A stretch of 34,665 bases of DNA from Candidatus Iainarchaeum sp. (lineage in GTDB: Archaea; Iainarchaeota; Iainarchaeia; JAADDC01). A program made the position numbers and the translations under genes. The stretch is taken from positions 1 through 34,665 of the forward strand of contig JASUTF010000006.1 in assembly GCA_030445695.1 (NCBI GenBank), read 5' to 3'. Under the pieces are notes generated by a model. It did not search any database, was not told where the DNA came from, and saw only the letters and a program-made list of their open reading frames with translations. The first letter of the stretch is position 1. Each line of letters begins with the position of its first letter. Of the stretch, positions 87 through 30,253 are shown piece by piece.

Positions 87-130
87 CCGTAATCACCTCG
101 GCAGAAAAAGGAAAAGTACATATAAAAATG

Positions 131-190
131 TTGCTCAGTTCACCTCCTTATCATCACGGGTCAGCCTGCCCGTTCAGTCATCATCGCTCT
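131..190 (-). ncRNA. C/D box guide sRNA
   Basis: Minus strand reads gcg-ATGATGA(C)-ctgaacgggcagg-CTGA(D')-ccc-GTGATGA(C')-taaggaggtgaa-CTGA(D)-gc. All four boxes match consensus, with 13- and 12-nt guides and a 3-nt D'-C' spacer. TATA-like ggttataacc at 209-218 lies about 25-30 nt upstream; T-rich tract follows. Confidence 0.88.
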
Positions 191-208: not shown

Positions 209-218
209 GGTTATAACC
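209..218 (-). promoter_or_regulatory. TATA-like element upstream of the C/D sRNA
   Basis: ggttataacc located at archaeal TATA spacing from the predicted sRNA 5' end. Confidence 0.45.
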
Positions 219-30198: not shown

Positions 30199-30253
30199 AG
30201 GTCAGCCCTGCCTGGGTTCATCACCTTCAGCAGTGGCTAAGGTCATCATCCCG
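30199..30253 (-). ncRNA. C/D box guide sRNA
   Basis: Minus strand: cggg-ATGATGA(C)-ccttagccactg-CTGA(D')-agg-TGATGA(C')-acccaggcaggg-CTGA(D)-cc; two 12-nt guides; TATA-like ataaatttt at 30271-30281 about 25 nt upstream. Confidence 0.87.

Follow-up and report, generated by a model that had tools for sequence, protein, structure and literature searches.

Archaeal dual-guide C/D box sRNAs (Rfam sR families, snoPyro_CD; Dennis et al. 2015) assemble with L7Ae, Nop5 and fibrillarin, and methylation falls on the target nucleotide that pairs at the fifth position from box D (PMC4644070, PMC5539422). The gene described here, which lies in a window of 34,665 nucleotides (the whole stretch of DNA analyzed) from Candidatus Iainarchaeum sp., resembles them in size, box order, spacing and D+5 register. 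It likewise carries two guides for 16S rRNA sites in a genome encoding fibrillarin and Nop5. What separates it from these RNAs is its D guide, which targets the anti-Shine-Dalgarno (anti-SD) tail of 16S rRNA. Two further systems share single properties with this locus. The sR15 and sR17 sRNAs of N. equitans also join distant parts of 16S rRNA by the two guides of one molecule, and chaperone roles have been proposed for them (PMC4644070). However, they grip both strands of helices 28 and 30, while the present guides would join helix 44 to the free 3′ tail. In the l7ae leader of Sulfolobus, a k-turn adjoins an SD-like sequence as well, and L7Ae masks the SD within its own leader (PMC5539422). 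There, a single k-turn acts in cis, whereas the present locus contains a complete double-guide sRNA that is not followed by an ORF in the home genus. In the literature consulted on archaeal 16S rRNA methylation, helices 3, 18 and 27 appear as hot spots, modification is sparse in helix 44 and the anti-SD is not mentioned. A literature search for C/D sRNAs with a Shine-Dalgarno target yielded no report, the supplementary target lists of Dennis 2015 and the Pyrobaculum study of Lui 2018 not being covered. The RNA belongs to a known kind, as every testable defining feature of a C/D box sRNA is met, and its anti-SD target is apparently unreported. Since an earlier listing in the two uncovered sources cannot be excluded, the novelty of the target is probable, not proven.

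A sequence-only reading of the window had proposed a complete C-D′-C′-D sRNA with a TATA-like element of its own. The sRNA was borne out by the anatomy observed, and a TATA-like sequence is present (Table 1). The gene runs on the minus strand from about 187 to 133 and has textbook archaeal boxes, whose layout (ATGATGA-13-CTGA-3-GTGATGA-12-CTGA) conforms to the order and spacing of C/D box sRNAs. In the 5′ to 3′ direction, AGCG precedes the C box. The TTATAA element shares bases with the coiled-coil gene's stop codon. Together with the T run, it would be compatible with a promoter and a terminator belonging to the sRNA itself. A scan for bacterial-type promoters and terminators gave no match, but such a scan is uninformative for archaea. 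The strand, the C1402 target of the D′ guide, the conservation of the locus and the placement of the guide as a possible SD of the next gene in the sister genus (see below) had not been part of the sequence-only reading.

Table 1. Features of the sRNA locus and its flanks (positions in the window; guides and boxes in the orientation of the sRNA; rRNA positions in E. coli numbering)
Feature	Position	Strand	Basis
C/D box sRNA gene body, about 55 nt	133..187	-	box anatomy; Rfam archaeal C/D full-length alignment (133-188); BLAST similarity in relatives
C box ATGATGA	178..184	-	sequence; invariant in 8 family members
D′ guide CTGAACGGGCAGG; core ACGGGCAG pairs with 16S CUGCCCGU, D′+5 = C1402	165..177	-	8 bp with own 16S
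D′ box CTGA	161..164	-	sequence; family variants CTGA or CCGA
D′-C′ spacer CCC	158-160	-	sequence
C′ box GTGATGA	151..157	-	sequence; family consensus NTGAKGA
D guide TAAGGAGGTGAA; AGGAGGTGA pairs with 16S 3′ tail UCACCUCCU, D+5 = C1535	139..150	-	9 bp contiguous, own 16S
D box CTGA	135..138	-	sequence; invariant
sRNA terminal GC	133-134	-	sequence
TATA-like element TTATAA, centre about 26 nt upstream of the putative 5′ end	211..216	-	sequence only
T run, possible transcription end	124..128	-	motif alone
Coiled-coil gene, 940 aa	211-3033	-	flanks the sRNA, same strand
Archaeal pilin-like gene (MKGVSPVIATVLMVAVAIAAAVVAYSWF...), downstream, truncated by contig end	1..86	-	own SD GAGGTGAT at 99-92

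Several archaeal C/D families of Rfam align end to end with positions 133-188, namely sR3 (E=4.9e-7), sR17, sR1, sR14, sR2 and snoPyro_CD. None of the Rfam families reached its gathering score here (sR3: 32.4 bits versus a threshold of 41; sR1, sR2 and sR17 lower). The sR families share only the box frame with the sRNA but not the guides, and GGAGGUGA is absent from the consensus guides shown in the matching families. Across the own genome, the C/D pattern gave 19 matches compared to none for the reversed control. Adjacent genes for fibrillarin (PF01269) and Nop5 (PF01798) were detected on locus L090 of the same genome by a search that did not include L7Ae. A second C/D box sRNA of the window, located at 30202-30248 on the minus strand (TGATGACCTTAGCCACTGCTGAAGGTGATGAACCCAGGCAGGGCTGA), possesses guides that match rRNA only weakly (7 bp). 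Elsewhere in the genome, four C/D pattern matches, two per strand, form an sRNA cluster within 270 bp (G000:C10:1736-2002).

To identify the rRNA targets, the guides were aligned to rRNA of the organism itself. The genome contains a single 16S gene ending in ...GGACGGATCACCTCCTctgg (...GCGGACGGATCACCTCCTctggtgg), and nine contiguous Watson-Crick pairs are formed between its 3′ end and the D guide (UCACCUCCU:AGGAGGUGA). The complementarity to the anti-SD tail claimed from the sequence was thus upheld by this alignment, and it is also supported by the orthologs of the family and the recurrence in a second phylum described below. By contrast, the 16S end ...CCUUA and the 11 bp that the claim implied must be corrected: the pairing comprises nine and not 11 bp because the own 16S end differs from this idealised one. 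The nucleotide of the D guide adjoining box D is unpaired, which is the usual pattern among the other guides of the genome. Counting five positions from box D leads to C1535 within the anti-SD, in agreement with the methylation site predicted earlier (the number was derived by manual count from the E. coli 16S 3′ end). Pairing of the D′ guide extends over 8 bp and involves CUGCCCGU, part of the 5′ strand of helix 44; the nucleotide selected is C1402, a decoding-centre cytidine that bears a 2′-O-methyl group in bacteria and eukaryotes. Both guides are paired at the +5 position, so that the rRNA complementarity expected of a C/D box sRNA is present. Yeast snR70 and human SNORD43 guide 2′-O-methylation at the C1402-equivalent position. 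The D′ guide would therefore act on the nucleotide equivalent to that of these snoRNAs, though the RNA is a different one. We know of no link between C1402 and a 3′-tail guide in eukaryotic snoRNAs, and eukaryotic 18S rRNA lacks an anti-SD.

As a yardstick for the pairing, 34 guides were parsed from the C/D pattern matches of the own genome and scored against its 16S rRNA or the 23S rRNA of the relative G001, the own genome lacking 23S. Of these guides, 74% had pairing scores of 8 or higher, compared with 22% after shuffling. The commonest pattern of strong guides consists of an unpaired position -1 followed by about 10 pairs, and the anti-SD guide is built alike. Its 9 bp lie inside the range of real guides, yet 6% of the shuffled guides scored equally somewhere in rRNA. 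For the D′ guide, an alternative match of 8 bp exists in the 23S rRNA of G001, but variation at position -1 favours the 16S site.

Conservation of the sRNA was observed in the own family, where an ortholog is present in eight of ten genomes; the two genomes without a copy (G003, G004) are both incomplete assemblies. BLAST searches with positions 125-215 retrieved two members of the same genus (G001, G002) and three further members of the family (G006, G007, G009), and the matches end at the ends of the sRNA. The 15-base pattern of guide plus box D (AAGGAGGTGANCTGA) was found in seven of the ten family genomes, and the class's remaining 83 genomes lack it. The D core AAGGAGGTGA is invariant in 7/10 family genomes. 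In the eighth ortholog (G005), a deletion of one nucleotide in the D guide would move the target to C1536. In the family alignment, the flanks and the D′-C′ spacer drift, in contrast to the C box, the two guide cores and box D, which are retained. The D′ core A[C/T]GGGCAG is retained in seven of eight members, the U variant giving a G:U pair. By contrast, the unpaired position -1 varies in both guides, and at the D′ guide all four bases occur. All five 16S genes of the family that were read contain CUGCCCGU and the anti-SD, whereas most other members of the class that were read have CCGCCCAU at the D′ site. Thus, the D′ guide suits the 16S rRNA of its own lineage. Two side observations were made in the family. 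Comparison of 16S genes (L134-L143 versus L001 and L050-L053) showed variation of the decoding centre, with U at E. coli position 1400 in the family (CUGCCCGU) and A at 1405 in most other class members read (CCGCCCAU), both sites being otherwise very conserved. Genome G002 (L043) contains a degraded second copy of the 3′ half of the sRNA (CGGGAGGTGAGCTGAGCAAC), located about 85 nt past the intact guide and just before the pilin gene, which apparently arose by a duplication after which one copy decayed.

Outside the family, 85,488 species genomes were scanned with a pattern composed of a C box, a C′ TGA, GGAGGTGA, one base and CTGA. Of the 35 loci obtained, six belong to the own family, five to Thermoprotei/Thermofilum/Thermoproteales and one to Methanolobus, the remainder being bacterial. 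The bacterial loci and the Methanolobus locus were rejected as anti-SD sRNAs on account of their unconvincing C/D context. In the Thermofilum class, however, AAGGAGGTGANCTGA recurs in the same register in 13 of 81 genomes (control: none). All 13 copies are interpretable as C/D RNAs: eight satisfied an automatic check of the C and C′ boxes, which only 0.7% of random positions pass, and the other five have variant boxes when inspected by eye. In three of these five, the anti-SD guide stands ahead of the first D box, in the D′ position, in what appears to be a tandem sRNA cluster. Six matches in the rest of the Thermofilum phylum were discarded, since none of them showed C/D anatomy and most resemble ribosome-binding sites or coding sequence. 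Where a 16S gene was found, the tails in the Thermofilum class read CACCTCCTT, and pairing with the guide ranges from 10 bp (G147) to 12 bp (G127). The partner guides, which are unrelated, and the gene neighbours vary among these loci, from which it follows that the anti-SD guide module either moved or evolved repeatedly. Concerning the neighbours, a small protein of unknown kind (KPYPxNxDI...VWRxYxxLVxxGxIxD) is encoded near the anti-SD sRNA at L059, L063, L066 and L067, at differing distance and strand. At L058 and L062, the sRNA is located beside ORFs that, on the basis of sequence motifs alone, resemble the SAM-cycle enzymes methylthioadenosine phosphorylase and adenosylhomocysteinase. A translation initiation factor suspected at L066 and L067 from the start of the protein was not confirmed; the ORFs code for small proteins of unknown kind and the functional link was dropped.

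The core of the sequence-only reading, a C/D box sRNA with a D guide directed to the anti-SD and C1535 as predicted site, is supported, as it survived every test run. The consequences suggested along with it, altered initiation, a mark of 3′-end maturation or masking of the anti-SD, are inferences. We consider it likely that the RNA functions as a dual-guide sRNA directing 2′-O-methylation of C1402 and C1535, probably in late 30S assembly. L7Ae, Nop5 and fibrillarin would bind the sRNA and form an sRNP whose D′ guide pairs with CUGCCCGU of the 5′ strand of helix 44 and whose D guide pairs with the 3′ tail (UCACCUCCU), upon which fibrillarin would methylate the cytidine in the decoding centre and that in the anti-SD. 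Because the D duplex covers the entire anti-SD, the sRNP could not occupy a subunit engaged in SD-dependent initiation and would have to act earlier, most likely in late 30S assembly before the tail joins initiation. The bound particle would mask the anti-SD transiently, as a by-product, and keep the base of helix 44 away from the tail. A ribose methyl group left on the anti-SD would be the lasting effect and should stiffen the tail, pre-organise it for pairing with mRNA and shield it from hydrolysis and nucleases. What the sequence establishes is the anatomy of the gene with its pairing and register, its conservation and its recurrence. For these uncultivated archaea no RNA or methylation data exist, so that expression of the sRNA and methylation rest on inference; assembly of the sRNP, its timing and any effect on initiation are likewise inferred.

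It is conceivable that the sRNP mainly serves as an assembly chaperone or mask: it would grip the 16S tail together with the base of helix 44 and withhold the anti-SD until cleavage of the 3′ end, methylation being incidental or absent. The 16S stretches tied together by the guides are separated by about 130 nt, and chaperone functions of this type have been put forward for sR15 and sR17 of N. equitans (PMC4644070). Helix 44 and the tail may be bridged in the Thermofilum class too, since the D′ guide of L065 and that of L067 can each form 8 bp with the upper helix 44 of G127 (used as proxy genome for L065). Nevertheless, we regard this explanation as unlikely because 20 genomes share a fixed register of one free nucleotide followed by CTGA, a constancy needed for methylation but not for masking. 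This count has to be qualified as the search pattern itself imposed the register and other registers were not counted. With the same reservation, the common register favours the methyl group as the object of selection, although selection on methyl and on masking cannot be told apart from the sequence. A trans-acting regulator, by which the sRNA or sRNP on the anti-SD of mature 30S subunits competes with SD-led mRNAs and favours leaderless ones, would agree with the guide being a perfect SD mimic and with 30S complexes of S. solfataricus, in which an mRNA with an SD-like stretch binds the free tail (PMC11698992). We judge it highly improbable, however, as the sequence gives no sign of regulated expression and a D′ guide directed to the decoding centre suits assembly better. 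That an ordinary sRNA acquired an SD-like string between its C′ and D boxes by chance can practically be dismissed: GGAGGTGA is common in prokaryotic genomes and the genome-wide scan did yield chance matches in bacteria, but chance accounts neither for the conservation in the family, with absence elsewhere in the class, nor for the recurrence with C/D anatomy in a second phylum.

The guide might instead be kept as the Shine-Dalgarno sequence of a leader, in which the boxes form an L7Ae k-turn that controls the next gene. Use of the guide as ribosome-binding site of a translated leader had been named beforehand as a result that would refute the sRNA, and this result was not obtained in the home genus (g1), where no conserved ORF starts within SD range (5-13 nt after GGAGG). 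In this genus, the pilin gene is served by a separate SD located about 50 to 125 nt downstream and starts with AUG; since it has its own SD GAGGTGAT, the GGAGGTGA of the sRNA is not its ribosome-binding site. SD-like strings were found near 13 of 34 long ORFs of the window, albeit by a crude scan with uncertain starts and without a null, for which reason the count was given no weight. The situation is different in the sister genus g2 (L046-L049; G007, G009, G006, G008), in which an ORF resembling geranylgeranyl reductase follows directly after box D. This identity was deduced from motifs, Pfam giving only sub-threshold matches to FAD-binding and lycopene-cyclase domains. The ORF has no AUG, GUG or UUG, and the residue expected to be Met is encoded by ATC, ATA, ATA and ATT in the four species, 10 nt past GAGG. 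In g2, the D guide may therefore double as SD for a conserved non-AUG start, or translation may begin at a CTG within box D. ORFs whose 5′ ends overlap sRNA genes are a known minority arrangement (PMC7994747). In g1, the pilin gene stands between the sRNA and the reductase gene downstream, so the sRNA kept its place and it is the pilin gene that was gained or lost. A ribosome-binding site was hence rejected for the home genus and remains a possible second use in g2. As a general explanation, a leader is very unlikely despite the Sulfolobus precedent (PMC5539422), because it would not need the D′ guide core, which is conserved as well, and because most Thermofilum-class copies have no ORF positioned for use of the guide as SD.

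Methylation guided by a C/D box sRNA remains the preferred reading. The anti-SD is usually regarded as an unmodified and always accessible stretch of 16S rRNA. The findings suggest that some archaea mark this mRNA-recruiting site chemically or cover it temporarily. It is possible, though doubtful at present, that a dedicated sRNP gates or tunes the anti-SD, methylation of C1535 or timed masking shifting the acceptance of SD-led versus leaderless mRNAs, and that this arose more than once in archaea (in a DPANN family and in the Thermofilum class). A guide conserved in the same register in two distant archaeal groups suggests that in some archaea an sRNP acts on the tail, which may carry a ribose methyl group. 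Hence, the anti-SD guide bears on the balance between SD-led and leaderless initiation in archaea and on how the 16S 3′ end is kept inert during assembly.
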